A DNA stretch of 64,000 bases, taken from contig NC_072818.1 in the NCBI RefSeq assembly GCF_003013715.1, positions 558,001-622,000 of the forward strand, given 5' to 3'. The notes under the pieces were generated by a model that searched no databases, was not told the origin of the DNA, and saw only the letters and a program-made list of their open reading frames with translations. The translations under genes and the position numbers were made by a program. Position 1 is the stretch's first letter. Every line of letters starts with the position of its first letter. Source of the DNA: Candidozyma auris. Lineage: Eukaryota; Ascomycota; Pichiomycetes; Serinales; Metschnikowiaceae. This document shows, in pieces, positions 759 through 63,449 of this stretch.

Positions 759-769
759 TGGCTGCAAAT
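759..769 (+). promoter_or_regulatory. Recurrent motif TGGCTGCAAAT
   Basis: Exact core match to the window-wide motif, 243 bp upstream of the L2HGDH start and antisense to it. Confidence 0.6.
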
Positions 770-1190
770 GAGCCATTTACAACCACGTCAGATTATGGCA
801 ATTTCTGTAGCAGTTCACCAAGTGGGAACTCTATCTGTCCTCCTAATGCAGTTTGTTTTTCGATGGTTGGTTTTGACGTCATCATCCGTACGACGGTAAT
901 CTTCTTATATTTAACTTACATCCGCGAAATACATGTTTTTGTGGAAACCTGTTTTTTGTAAATCTGGATGTAATTATGGATATCTTCAAAGATGTTTTCT
1001 TAACCATTGGGGAAATCGAAAACACATCATCCCCTGGGGAATGGTAAGTTAGTAGAGTCGTCTCCAGCTTTCGATGAGTCTTTTTTTTTAAACAAATTTT
1101 TTTTTCTCTTCACGAACTGAGAAACCGCGGGAATTTTTCGGGCCAAAAGTATACTGTGCTTGCTGGAGCTTTTCTCATTTTGGACGACTC

Positions 1191-1201
1191 ATTTGCAGCC
1201 A
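1191..1201 (-). promoter_or_regulatory. Recurrent motif (ATTTGCAGCCA on +)
   Basis: Exact core match on the minus strand, about 680 bp upstream of the L2HGDH start. The opposite-facing copy lies at 759. Confidence 0.55.
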
Positions 1202-2131
1202 AGTACACTAGATGCATCGAAGGCTTCAAGTAGCTCGCTTAATCGCACAGAACAAATCACACTATCGCTGTGCAGGCCCTGCTTTCCTTTCTTTCCAAGC
1301 TAAGGTTTGGACGAAATATGATATTATGGTAAAAGCTTGAATTGGGTGAATTATTGATTGCTTCACCATATCATAGAATTGACCTCTTCTTTATTTCCTG
1401 AAACAGTGAGCTATCGTTTACTTGTACTCGCTTCGTGATTCTTGCGAAAAGTTAACAAGAAAGTCCAAAAACACATATGCCCTCTTGACTTGATTTCTTT
1501 TTATTTTGAAAAAACATATTCGAATCAAAGTAAATAAAACTATATTGTGAAACTGCTTCAAAAGTTAACGTGAGCCTGAGATTTAGCTTAGTTGCTTGAT
1601 GGGTCAACCTTGAGGCGAATACTGAATTCTCAAAAGCATACTCTAGTTTCTTAAATACTCGGAGAAAACCTCGACAGTATCGAAGCAAACCACACCAAAT
1701 ACTTTTAGGACTCTTTCGGCTATTCTTTTTATAGACAATACTCTGATTGAAATGAATAAAAGAATATCAGTATAGTAAACAGACCTTCAGTCAGCTTCTT
1801 TCATTTGAGAATGGTACCCTACAGAGGTGTAAAAGTCTCTAGTTTTCTACACCCTGAATACACTAGTCTAACCACAACAGAACCTACGGTGTATCAATAA
1901 GTCCTACAGAAAATAGAGTACATCTACATGCATGTTTATAATTTTTCCGACAGATTTCTGTTTAAAGTGAACAAAACCATGCCATAACTACAACAGGCCT
2001 ATAAGCAGTTTCCAGCAGACTAATCGCACAATCAATAGCATGTCTTATTTGCCATACTAAAATTACAATAGCTAAAAACCTTCACACAAAGTTTTCTAAA
2101 AATCTCTCGTAGGTAACTCCTGCTTCTGATC

Positions 2132-2371
2132 ATGAGGGAGTCGTCGAAGTTTTACCGATGGAGAGAATGGGTATTTCACAAGCCGGTAGGTACCAAACCT
2201 AAGAAGATCAATAACTTAATGCTGCTGGTGAATACAATTACTGATTGGCATACGCTTGCAGTCCATAGGGGCCATTTCAGAACACAAGGTTTACGAGCAC
2301 CAATTGAGCTAAAAATTTCCCAGATTATACTAAAAGCCATCAGATGTGTAAAGCAGTCATTAAAAGACTAA
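2132..2371 (+). CDS. Small ORF of unknown status (79 codons)
   Basis: ATG-initiated frame lying 88 bp before tRNA-Gln. The first 20 residues (MRESSKFYRWREWVFHKPVG) look protein-like, rich in aromatic and basic residues. The rest looks like random translation. I recognise no family. It may be chance, or a first exon ending near the GTAGGT at about 2186. Confidence 0.15.
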   Translation: MRESSKFYRWREWVFHKPVGTKPKKINNLMLLVNTITDWHTLAVHRGHFRTQGLRAPIELKISQIILKAIRCVKQSLKD

Positions 2372-60280: not shown

Positions 60281-60931
60281 ATGGGCCAGGGACCGTCGCA
60301 GCCAAAGATCACCGCCCAGGATAAGGCGATTTTCCAGCTCAAGCGGCAGCGTGACAACCTCAAACAGTACCAGCGCAAGCTCAACGTCATCATCGACAAA
60401 CAGCATGCTTTAGCGAAACAAGCGATCCAGGAGGGGAAAACTGATAAGGCCAAACTCTACCTTCGTCTGCGAAAACAGCAGGAGCTGCTTGTCAACAAGA
60501 CATACGAGCAGTTGGGCAATTTGGAAAACCTAATAGGCACCATTGAGTTCAAGTTGATAGAGAAGGATGTAGTGTATGGGTTGACCCAGGGCAATGAGGT
60601 GTTGAAGAAACTCAACAGCGAGATGAGCGTGGACAAGATTGACAAAGTGATAGACGACTTGGAGGAGGAGAAGTTGAAGGTGGACGAGGTTTCTGATCTT
60701 TTGGGCATGGGCTCGTTGAGCAATCTGGAGGAACATGAGGTGGACGAGGAAATGGCTGCTTTGGAGAGAGAGTTAGCGCCAGAGAAGGCGCCAAAAGAAG
60801 CTCAGAAGGAGGAGCACAAAATATCGCTTCCGGATGCCCCCACAGAGGAGCCTCAGGGAGAAGAACCAGCGGTGGTGGAGCCGCAGCCAGAGAAAGAGAG
60901 ACCCAAGGAGGAAGCAGCGATGCTAGCATAA
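60281..60931 (+). CDS. VPS20: ESCRT-III subunit Vps20 (CHMP6)
   Basis: 216 codons from ATG at 60281. The frame is open 97 codons further upstream, but 60281 gives MGQGPSQPK, an N-myristoylation signal, and the normal Vps20 length (221 in S. cerevisiae). Vps20 links ESCRT-II to Snf7 polymerisation during vesicle budding into the multivesicular body. Seen: a basic helical N-terminal half (FQLKRQRDNLKQYQRKLNV, AKLYLRLRKQQELLVNK), then an acidic C-terminal half (MSVDKIDKVIDDLEEEKLKV, EVDEEMAALERELAP) and a Pro/Glu-rich tail. Typical Snf7-domain charge pattern. Confidence 0.92.
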   Translation: MGQGPSQPKITAQDKAIFQLKRQRDNLKQYQRKLNVIIDKQHALAKQAIQEGKTDKAKLYLRLRKQQELLVNKTYEQLGNLENLIGTIEFKLIEKDVVYGLTQGNEVLKKLNSEMSVDKIDKVIDDLEEEKLKVDEVSDLLGMGSLSNLEEHEVDEEMAALERELAPEKAPKEAQKEEHKISLPDAPTEEPQGEEPAVVEPQPEKERPKEEAAMLA

Positions 60932-61222
60932 ATGACACTGTGAAGCTGCCCACTGTGAGCTTAAATTTCAACCACTTCTGACGTTGCATTAATTCGTTGC
61001 ATTTATACATAATAATACACATTGCGAGATGAATCAAGCAAATGTGTCTGAGCTTTTTTTAGTTGGGGCTTTCGTTGTGATACCGGCTTCCTCAATAAGT
61101 AAGCTAGAGGCTTGGTCGTATCATCAATACACTTCCTCTCATGTCCATATAATTTATATACATATGATTTTTATGGACTCATTGGAACTATACTGTATCG
61201 GAGCCAGATTCTTCGGGTCTCT

Positions 61223-62248
61223 CTACTCCTCATCGAGCCACTCGAGAAACTCTGGCGTGAAGTAACTGATGAACAAGCGGGCGCCGGCTCTCAAAAATCC
61301 GTTGTGAGACTCGAACGCAATGGCCTTCAAGTCAGCAACACCCTTCTCAGCGGCAGCGTGCAACATGGCGTACTCTCCACTCACCTGATAGACCGCAAGC
61401 GGGAAGTCTTTACAAATTTTCAGCGCCTCGTTGACGATGTCAAGGTAGAAAGTGGAAGGTTTCACGATGAAGGCATCAGCACCCTCCTCAATGTCTCTGA
61501 CAAGAGCCCTTCGGGCCAAGCCAGCGCCTCCCGAGGGCAACTGGTACAGCTTTCTGTCGCCATGCGAAGGAGCCAGCCCAGCAATGTCCCTGAAAGGCCC
61601 GTAGAGGGAGCCCAGAAACTTGGCCAGGTACGACATCACAAGCACCTTGTTCTCGAGCTTGGCGGCAATGAGCCCCAACTTGATCTCCTTGATTCGCCCG
61701 TCCATCATATCTGACGGAGCCACGCAGTGTGCTCCAGCTTTGGCGTAGTTGACCGCCACAGCACCGATTCTCAATACACTGGGCTCCCTTTTCAACAGAC
61801 CGTCGTCGTTCAAAATGCCGCAGTGGCCGTGGTCCGTGTACTCACAGAGACACACGTCGCACATGATGTACAACGACGGAAACTCCCGTTTCAACAACTT
61901 GATCGCCTGGATCACCGGCCCGTCAGGATCGTCAGCAGCCGAGCCCACGCTGTCCTTGACGCCGTCTTTCAAAATGACGCCAAACAAAATCACCGCCCGG
62001 AGCCCCTTCTCCACAAGCGGCCTTACGTAAGCAGCCAACTTGTTGATGCCGTGTCTCTTGATTCTAGGTAACGACGGGATCTCAGTTTCCTCGTCCTCCA
62101 CATCGCTCACGAACAAGGGGAAGATGAACATCAGCTTGGTGAGCTGTCTTTCGCTCTGCCAGACTCGGGCCAACGGATGATTGTACCCGCCCTGGAGCAC
62201 CAGCGAGATGTCTGTGCCGCTTGGAGGAAGGTATTCGGCCTGGTGCAT
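61223..62248 (-). CDS. HEM2: Delta-aminolevulinic acid dehydratase (porphobilinogen synthase)
   Basis: 341 codons from ATG at 62248 (S. cerevisiae Hem2 is 342). The frame is open about 118 codons further upstream, but that part is unlike the family. Second step of haem synthesis, joining two aminolevulinate molecules, in the cytosol. Seen: the zinc-binding cysteines in [31 protein letters not shown], and the Schiff-base lysine in [16 protein letters not shown]. The C-terminal [16 protein letters not shown] is also typical. It is convergent with VPS20, 291 bp apart. A recurrent motif lies 249 bp upstream. Confidence 0.96.
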
Positions 62249-63449
62249 TGGAAGAAGGTGTAGTTTGGAGGTTGGAGATGTGCGAAAAGTGTGATAGTGG
62301 AGATGCACCAGTACAAGAAGGGACAAAAAGTAGCAAAAGTAAGAAAAAGTAAAAAGAAAAGGAAAACGAGGAGGGTAATCTGAAGAGTTGAGTTTGGTCA
62401 AATAAAGTGAATGTGACTTTTTAGGACTTTGGATTGGGAGATTGGGGGTTTGGGAAATGGCCATGGGAGTTTTGGAGCTGGGTGGGAATTCCATAATGGC
62501 TGCGAAATCTAGATCTGGCAGTAAGCGATCCTGGAGAATGGAGACTATCCAATGAGGAAGAGACAAACCAAGGATAATTGGTAATGTCATGTGCAAATTC
62601 ACTAGGCTTTCAATTTGGAAAGTCTATAAGAGAGGCATTAATTGTGGAGTCAGGTAGAGAAGCTTTCAATATGTCACTCGACGGAATATTCAGTCCTCTG
62701 GGGAAGAAGGAACCATAGTTAACGCAACATCACTGGATCAAAAAGACTTCTTTTGGGAATTGATATTGGGGACATTAACAGATCCTACATTATTTCCCTG
62801 TGGACCAACTAATTCTTCCTTTATTTTATTTCTGTCTTTTGGAATGCTGCTTGCTTATTAATAGAGCCCGTCTCAATGGCCCGCCTGGATACTTCAAAAA
62901 GAAGGTAGGTAAATTTAGTACTTGAAAAAAAATTCTTTTTTTTGATGAATACAAAATAAGTAAAATAAAAAAGGACACTTTGTAGATGGTTTAAGTACTC
63001 AAAGCGAAGCAGTCAAAGGTTATCCTGTTTTTCAGCCACCATAACATGTAATCTGTCTCTGTTGCCTGCCTTGAGCTTGAGATCTCTCTACATAATCGAT
63101 TTACTAGCCTAGAGTGACTAGAACCTTCCAATCCCTTCTTCATATGATTTCTCGAATGGCACCGCCTTAATTGAATTGCCACATATAAGCTGACTTTTGT
63201 TTCTATTATTTTTTACTAGAAGGTGGGGGTTGTCTTGTGACTCTGCTCTGGGTAGGCTGCGTAAAGTAAAGAATACCTCCCTCTCTACTAGAATGCTAGT
63301 AACTACAACTACTCGCATTGGTAATGTCAATTACAAGCTCAATTGGACTTACAGTTCACAGAAACTCATCTCTAGATATTTTGCGGCGCTCGATATCTCC
63401 ATTTCCCATATTGAAGTCAATCATACGTAGTGAGCTAACACAGGGCAGC
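62249..63449. other. Upstream region of HEM2
   Basis: 1.2 kb, AT-rich, one recurrent motif (62497) and A/T runs at about 62924-62970. No gene seen. Confidence 0.5.
62497..62507 (+). promoter_or_regulatory. Recurrent motif TGGCTGCGAAA
   Basis: Exact match, 249 bp upstream of HEM2, antisense to it. Confidence 0.6.

Follow-up and report, generated by a model that had tools for sequence, protein, structure and literature searches.

In a 64,000-nucleotide stretch of a Candidozyma yeast genome (C7:558001-622000, here called the window; the genome is 12.25 Mb in seven contigs), a short word, TGG[C/T/G]TGC[G/A]AA[A/T], recurs upstream of unrelated genes, and it recurs in the same way elsewhere in that genome. 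Judged by its sequence and placement, this motif is the putative site of one abundant, sequence-specific protein that would serve as a general regulatory factor of this yeast, a reading to which we assign a probability of roughly 0.74. An abundant DNA-binding protein would occupy the motif and, once bound, would keep the promoter free of nucleosomes; the nucleosome-free promoter could in turn fix the transcription start, a role that Reb1, Abf1 and Rap1 fill in baker's yeast. The motif matters as a long, well-defined element present in over a third of the sampled promoter intergenes (those between divergent or tandem genes) in the genus of C. auris.

We sampled 324 kb, comprising the window, 200 kb of contig C1, and 30 kb each of C4 and C6; the C1 stretch lies on a different chromosome from the window and was selected without reference to the motif. 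Coding and non-coding DNA were separated by codon-model gene calls, which leave 22,553 bp of the window non-coding. The exact core GGCTGCRAA occurs 29 times on the two strands of the window, and 20 of these copies are non-coding, where a first-order Markov model (30 simulations) predicts 0.17 and 200 letter permutations of the word give a mean of 0.19 and a maximum of 3. Similarly, 23 of the 36 copies in the C1 stretch are non-coding (1.3 expected), and the C4 and C6 stretches hold 8 and 4 copies in total. Between genes (98.6 kb of the sample), the 11-mer TGGCTGCRAAW has 41 sites versus 0.36 expected under a second-order Markov model, a 114-fold excess. After poly-A and TA repeats, the most over-represented intergenic 8-mers of the window and the C1 stretch are pieces of the motif.

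Across the genome, the same 11-mer is found 893 times on the forward strand and 868 times on the reverse, 1,761 in all, versus 8 and 3, or 11, for the reversed word. GGCTGCNAA is found 2,763 times versus 162 reversed, and the 14-mer AATGGCTGCGAAAA 236 times versus 0; AAATGGCTGCGAAAA has 117 genome copies, and the 100 that are listed all lie on contigs C1 to C6. The reversed word is a rough control, since dinucleotides differ between a word and its reverse, but the Markov and permutation controls point the same way, and on these three controls we reject chance or base composition as the source of the motif. A genome scan had been proposed in the first-pass annotation, an earlier reading of the window that first noticed the motif.

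Single-base changes scored over 78 kb of non-coding DNA refine the motif to TGG[C>T,G]TGC[G/A]AA[A/T]. Position 4 is C in 35 cases, T in 10, G in 8 and A in none; position 8 is G in 23, A in 12 and, rarely, T (2); position 11 is A in 29, T in 6 and C in 4; the remaining core positions are nearly fixed. Genome-wide, words with a base other than C at position 4 (TGGDTGCRAAW) number 1,014 versus 53 reversed, with A at that position in 9 of the 100 listed and T or G in the others. Of four one-mismatch copies reported earlier in the window, the one at 52620 is a variant that is enriched elsewhere, and those at 19665, 43324 and 47995 are not. Across 61 non-coding TGGBTGCRAAW sites the information comes to about 20 bits, an upper estimate because the sites were chosen by the 11-mer itself, and nearly all of it lies in the 11-mer and in an A two bases upstream of it. 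A further conserved G and T, 7-8 bases before the core, had been an impression from 43 sites; in the 61 sites they carry 0.17 and 0.04 bits and were dropped. A/T-rich DNA had been said to follow the RAA side of the motif, but total A+T is not elevated in the flanks; instead, T exceeds A in the 57 bases before the core (p = 0.0003) and A exceeds T in the 60 bases after it (p = 0.002; Wilcoxon, n = 53).

The motif favours promoters. GGCTGCRAA is present in 42 of 114 promoter intergenes versus 1 of 22 convergent ones, which agrees with the annotation's proposal of a promoter motif; with position-4 variants admitted, the former count rises to 51 of 114. Divergent intergenes carry the motif most often (17 of 25). 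Upstream of start codons, site density is 0.29-0.31 per kb over the first 200 bp and peaks at 1.06 per kb at 200-300 bp, and 26 of 52 copies lie at least 400 bp from a start codon. The downstream genes are unrelated, as had been claimed: 20 of the 30 called genes of the window were scanned with Pfam, and 18 of the 20 have a family, in addition to VTC4 (window only). Orientation, by contrast, is not free as had been thought, since 36 copies run opposite to the gene downstream and 16 run along it, the closer gene being taken in divergent pairs (binomial p = 0.008, in an unplanned test).

Such an orientation bias would suit a signal that acts in RNA, namely an upstream open reading frame (ORF), a 5' leader element or a terminator. 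We regard this as highly improbable, given that 16 of the 52 copies take the other orientation, that half lie at least 400 bp from the start codon, and that divergent intergenes are the most frequent carriers. The bias is also consistent with a replication origin or other chromosomal element (an origin-recognition or boundary site), as is the T-rich DNA before and A-rich DNA after the motif, an arrangement known from budding-yeast origins. However, an origin or boundary element is very unlikely, because a site occurs roughly every 7 kb, a closer spacing than that of known yeast origins, and only that single convergent intergene carries one; the sites are mostly upstream of genes and densest at 200-300 bp.

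Copies of the motif also occur close together. Genome-wide, 32 same-strand pairs lie within 20 bp of each other, listed on all seven contigs, and in 18 of them the period is exactly 11 bp (1-2 expected per period), about one helical turn; four of these 18 pairs belong to a five-copy array in the window. A short tandem repeat or the remnant of a mobile element, spread by copying, could leave both the array and the shared period, but we hold this to be extremely improbable. Set against the 2,763 copies of GGCTGCNAA, the 32 pairs imply that most copies stand outside arrays; further, outside the core the copies share at most 0.36 bits per flanking base (12 bases on each side), and their density follows position relative to genes.

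A broad but pathway-specific transcription factor, responding to nutrients, stress or the cell cycle, is another reading, in which the motif would not mark a general promoter organiser. It would account for a motif present in only 42 of 114 promoter intergenes, and for a density that varies: the window, where the motif was first noticed, is not typical, with 27 copies of TGGCTGCRAAW versus 9.2 at the genome rate, about threefold denser. Yet the genes behind the motif in the window range over a polyphosphate polymerase, a flippase, the spindle checkpoint, an M20 peptidase, CDC20 and haem synthesis, and the copy number and sequence constraint of the motif exceed those of typical pathway regulators. 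We therefore consider a pathway-specific site unlikely, and favour the site of a general regulatory factor.

Several observations weigh against that general-factor reading. The contrast between promoter and convergent intergenes is weak once lengths are matched: among intergenes of 50-500 bp, the 40 of promoter type (11.1 kb) hold 8 sites and the 16 convergent ones (2.4 kb) hold none. A second rise in density, to 0.87 per kb at 600-800 bp, blurs the peak at 200-300 bp, and the 11-bp arrays could have arisen by tandem duplication and not from cooperative binding. Within called ORFs, the core is also more frequent than expected, with 9 of the 29 window copies (0.67 expected, first-order Markov) and 13 of the 36 copies in the C1 stretch (2.5 expected). 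In the window, 6 of these 9 are doubtful as coding, namely the five-copy array at 31213-31267 and the copy at 62498. Confident coding interiors, 158 kb in all, hold 7 of 57 sampled copies of TGGCTGCRAAW. The first-pass annotation had counted 26 non-coding and 2 coding copies in the window. All 26 were recovered, as were both coding ones (28886 and 40483); the gene calls divide the copies into 20 non-coding and 9 within ORFs, and one more copy, in an adaptin ORF at 21765, had been overlooked. The annotation gave 11-mer positions, which are lower by one base than those of the 9-mer.

We then considered which protein might bind the motif. The Aft1/Aft2 iron-regulon site is TGCACCC, which reads GGGTGCA on the opposite strand, and the RPG box contains TGGGTG; the accepted variant TGGGTGCAAA contains GGGTGCA. 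It is this overlap of the Aft site and the RPG box with an accepted variant that leads us to propose an AFT/FAR1-type binder. The motif differs from these sites in preferring C at position 4 and in the RAAW that follows its core; TGGGTGCRAAW itself has 8 sites versus 0.38 expected between genes, with C still preferred at position 4. The RPG box is bound by Rbf1, according to PMC3904162. A Myb protein of the Rap1 type was also weighed as a reader of GGGTG but not adopted.

The genome has three genes of the AFT family (PF08731), on C1, C2 and C4. The C1 gene is Aft-type, and its product matches the solved Aft2 domain (4lmg, E 1.6e-14). The C2 gene at 2309 kb (L031) is a 591-aa frame that scores 25.6 bits with Pfam AFT, above the cut-off; the C4 gene at 815 kb is a 478-aa frame that scores 15.7 bits, under it. 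The C4 protein is the predicted Rbf1 orthologue, since several of its relatives bear the names transcription factor RBF1 or RPG-box-binding factor. Relatives of the C2 protein are found throughout the Serinales and beyond, several of them named FAR1 domain-containing; domain identity is 71-93% for 16 of the 22 relatives aligned and 41-47% for the other 6. The DNA-binding domain of L031 is 75% identical to that of its C. albicans relative, and the sources name no function for it. In single-sequence searches against solved structures, neither the C2 nor the C4 protein matched an AFT structure, and a search with a C2-family profile gave a weak match to Aft2 (E 0.066, ranked under low-complexity hits); profile comparison assigns the C2 and C4 proteins to the same family with a probability of 98.7%. 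Two Rbf1-like proteins from yeast, records P0155 and P0183, are assigned to Cerrena zonata and an Asgard archaeon bin; yeast contamination of those assemblies is the probable cause. TGGCTGCAAAC lies 393 bp upstream of the conserved start of the C2 gene, yet the motif is found in over a third of promoter intergenes.

As a guess, possible but short of probable, the most plausible class of binder is an AFT/FAR1-type protein, either the Rbf1 orthologue on C4 or its strongly conserved C2 relative. The AFT/FAR1 domain is transposase-related, and baker's yeast is known to retain it only in the iron regulators Aft1 and Aft2. It is unlikely that such a protein, unrelated to Reb1, Abf1 and Rap1 and carrying an AFT/FAR1 DNA-binding domain, would be the dominant general factor of the Metschnikowiaceae or of the wider Serinales. 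Telling against the assignment, AFT-type relatives are also present in C. albicans, enrichment of the unmodified Aft word TGCACCC reaches just 1.8-fold, and the link draws on a partial match of letters to the Aft and RPG-box sites; it is a lead, not a demonstration.

Table. Copies of the motif in the window, with the nearest features and the basis of each call.
Position	Strand	Word	Context	Basis
759..769	+	TGGCTGCAAAT		exact match, non-coding
1191..1201	-	TGGCTGCAAAT		exact match, non-coding
2701..2711	+	TGGCTGCGAAA	280 bp upstream of VTC4-like gene start	exact match, gene calls
10451..10461	-	TGGCTGCGAAA	274 bp upstream of P4-ATPase gene start	exact match, gene calls
11182..11192	-	TGGCTGCAAAA		exact match, gene calls
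15559..15569	-	TGGCTGCAAAA	divergent promoter, Mad3/Bub1-like gene start 266 bp away	exact match, gene calls
18230..18240	-	TGGCTGCGAAA	directly past GPI16 stop	exact match, gene calls
19492..19502	-	TGGCTGCGAAA		exact match, gene calls
21764..21774	+	TGGCTGCGAAA	within adaptin ORF; absent from first-pass annotation	exact match, gene calls
26865..26875	-	TGGCTGCGAAA		exact match, gene calls
28886..28894	-	GGCTGCAAA	coding, Zn-cluster gene; C for T before core	exact match, gene calls
29878..29888	+	TGGCTGCGAAA	395 bp upstream of Zn-cluster gene start	exact match, gene calls
31213..31267	+	TGGCTGCAAAA x5	head-to-tail, period 11 bp; N-terminus of low-scoring 281-aa ORF with later Met	doubtful coding
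36384..36394	-	TGGCTGCGAAA		exact match, gene calls
38481..38491	+	TGGCTGCGAAT	454 bp upstream of M20 peptidase gene start	exact match, gene calls
39353..39363	-	TGGCTGCGAAA		exact match, gene calls
40482..40492	+	TGGCTGCAAAT	coding copy	exact match, gene calls
41108..41118	+	TGGCTGCAAAA	next gene start 92 bp downstream	exact match, gene calls
45734..45742	-	GGCTGCGAA	300 bp upstream of UCH gene start; A before core	exact match, gene calls
50160..50170	-	TGGCTGCAAAA		exact match, gene calls
52620..52630	-	TGGTTGCGAAA	enriched variant, position 4 = T	variant counts
54605..54615	+	TGGCTGCAAAT	230 bp upstream of Rgp1 gene start	exact match, gene calls
56774..56784	+	TGGCTGCAAAA	725 bp upstream of protein-kinase gene start	exact match, gene calls
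59444..59454	+	TGGCTGCGAAA	159 bp upstream of CDC20-like gene start	exact match, gene calls
59832..59842	-	TGGCTGCGAAA	shares divergent promoter with 59444 copy	exact match, gene calls
62497..62507	+	TGGCTGCGAAA	probable 5' extension of HEM2 ORF; upstream of ALAD (HEM2) domain, which starts at residue 136	

Motif density is uneven along the chromosomes: C1:1266251-1924731, 0.65 Mb, has no copy of AATGGCTGCGAAAA, and the listed part of C2 has about twice the density of C1. A weaker over-represented word, TACCCCAG, has 12 sites versus 1.9 expected between genes (an example is at 544-553 of the window, minus strand), and TACCCCAGAT occurs 51 times genome-wide versus 13 reversed. Elsewhere in the window, the minus strand at 48258-49190 encodes a mitochondrial carrier, and the open frame opposite it (48240-49199) is probably a chance mirror ORF. 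The best named relative of a Zn-cluster protein of the window is in Candidozyma haemuli var. vulneris, with 77% identity; another match is 98% identical. For a different protein, the near-identical relative P0053 has Leu at several places where the table-12 reading of this genome gives Ser and the C. albicans relative also has Ser, which is the pattern of a CTG=Ser yeast.

Among known factor sites, for which we used consensus words over the same intergenic DNA and second-order Markov model, enrichment between genes was 0.6-2.0-fold for Reb1 words, 1.1 for Abf1, 0.8 for Mcm1, 2.0 for Tbf1 and 3.2-5.0 for Rap1/RPG words, the last resting on only 1-2 sites. Cbf1 words reached 3.6-5.2-fold (Cbf1's own TCACGTGA separately 5.2-fold), and the motif lacks the CACGTG core of Cbf1. 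As the first-pass annotation had noted, the letters of the motif differ from the Reb1, Abf1, Rpn4, Cbf1 and Mcm1 words, most of which are unenriched here; a Reb1/Nsi1, Abf1, Rap1 (RPG), Mcm1 or Rpn4 site was accordingly rejected as the identity of the motif.

The Rpn4 proteasome element, GGTGGCAAA or GAAGGCAAA, shares the GC(A)AA end of the motif. We found 14 proteasome genes, and the one upstream region examined carries the variant TTCGCAACC, which reads GGTTGCGAA on the complementary strand, some 200 bp upstream of the domain match. However, the Rpn4 words are unenriched (1.6 and 0.6 times expectation) and the motif precedes many non-proteasome genes; a proteasome regulon was therefore rejected.

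In C. albicans, the Reb1 orthologue Nsi1 binds TTACCCGG, according to PMC7565893. In the present genome this word has 116 copies versus 360 reversed and, locally, 2 versus 1.0 expected; this shows scarcity and not avoidance, because the reversed control lacks CpG and the local count is at expectation. So few Nsi1 sites would leave room for another general factor. The accessible text of Tsankov et al. 2010 (PMC2897762) describes general factors as having been swapped in evolution, with Reb1 and Abf1 sites accounting for only a small part of how nucleosomes are arranged in C. albicans, D. hansenii and Y. lipolytica. For the Cbf1-dominated promoters of pre-duplication yeasts, the same text names Cbf1, Rsc3/30-like, poly-G and CACGAC words and not this motif; the Metschnikowiaceae are outside its strain list. 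The word is likewise not named in the parts seen of the open-licence literature searched, logos in figures excluded (including PMC2897762, PMC7565893, PMC12607694, PMC10985990, PMC3904162 and PMC7826875), and the motif itself is probably new.

The motif offers a direct test of which proteins open the promoters of yeasts that make little use of Reb1 and Abf1. The general-factor sites of budding yeasts are long, informative words with about a thousand or more copies, found upstream of unrelated genes and mostly one or a few per promoter. In its length, copy number, promoter location and unrelated downstream genes, the motif resembles the sites of Reb1, Abf1, Rap1 and Cbf1; in its letters, it differs from those of Reb1, Abf1 and Cbf1.

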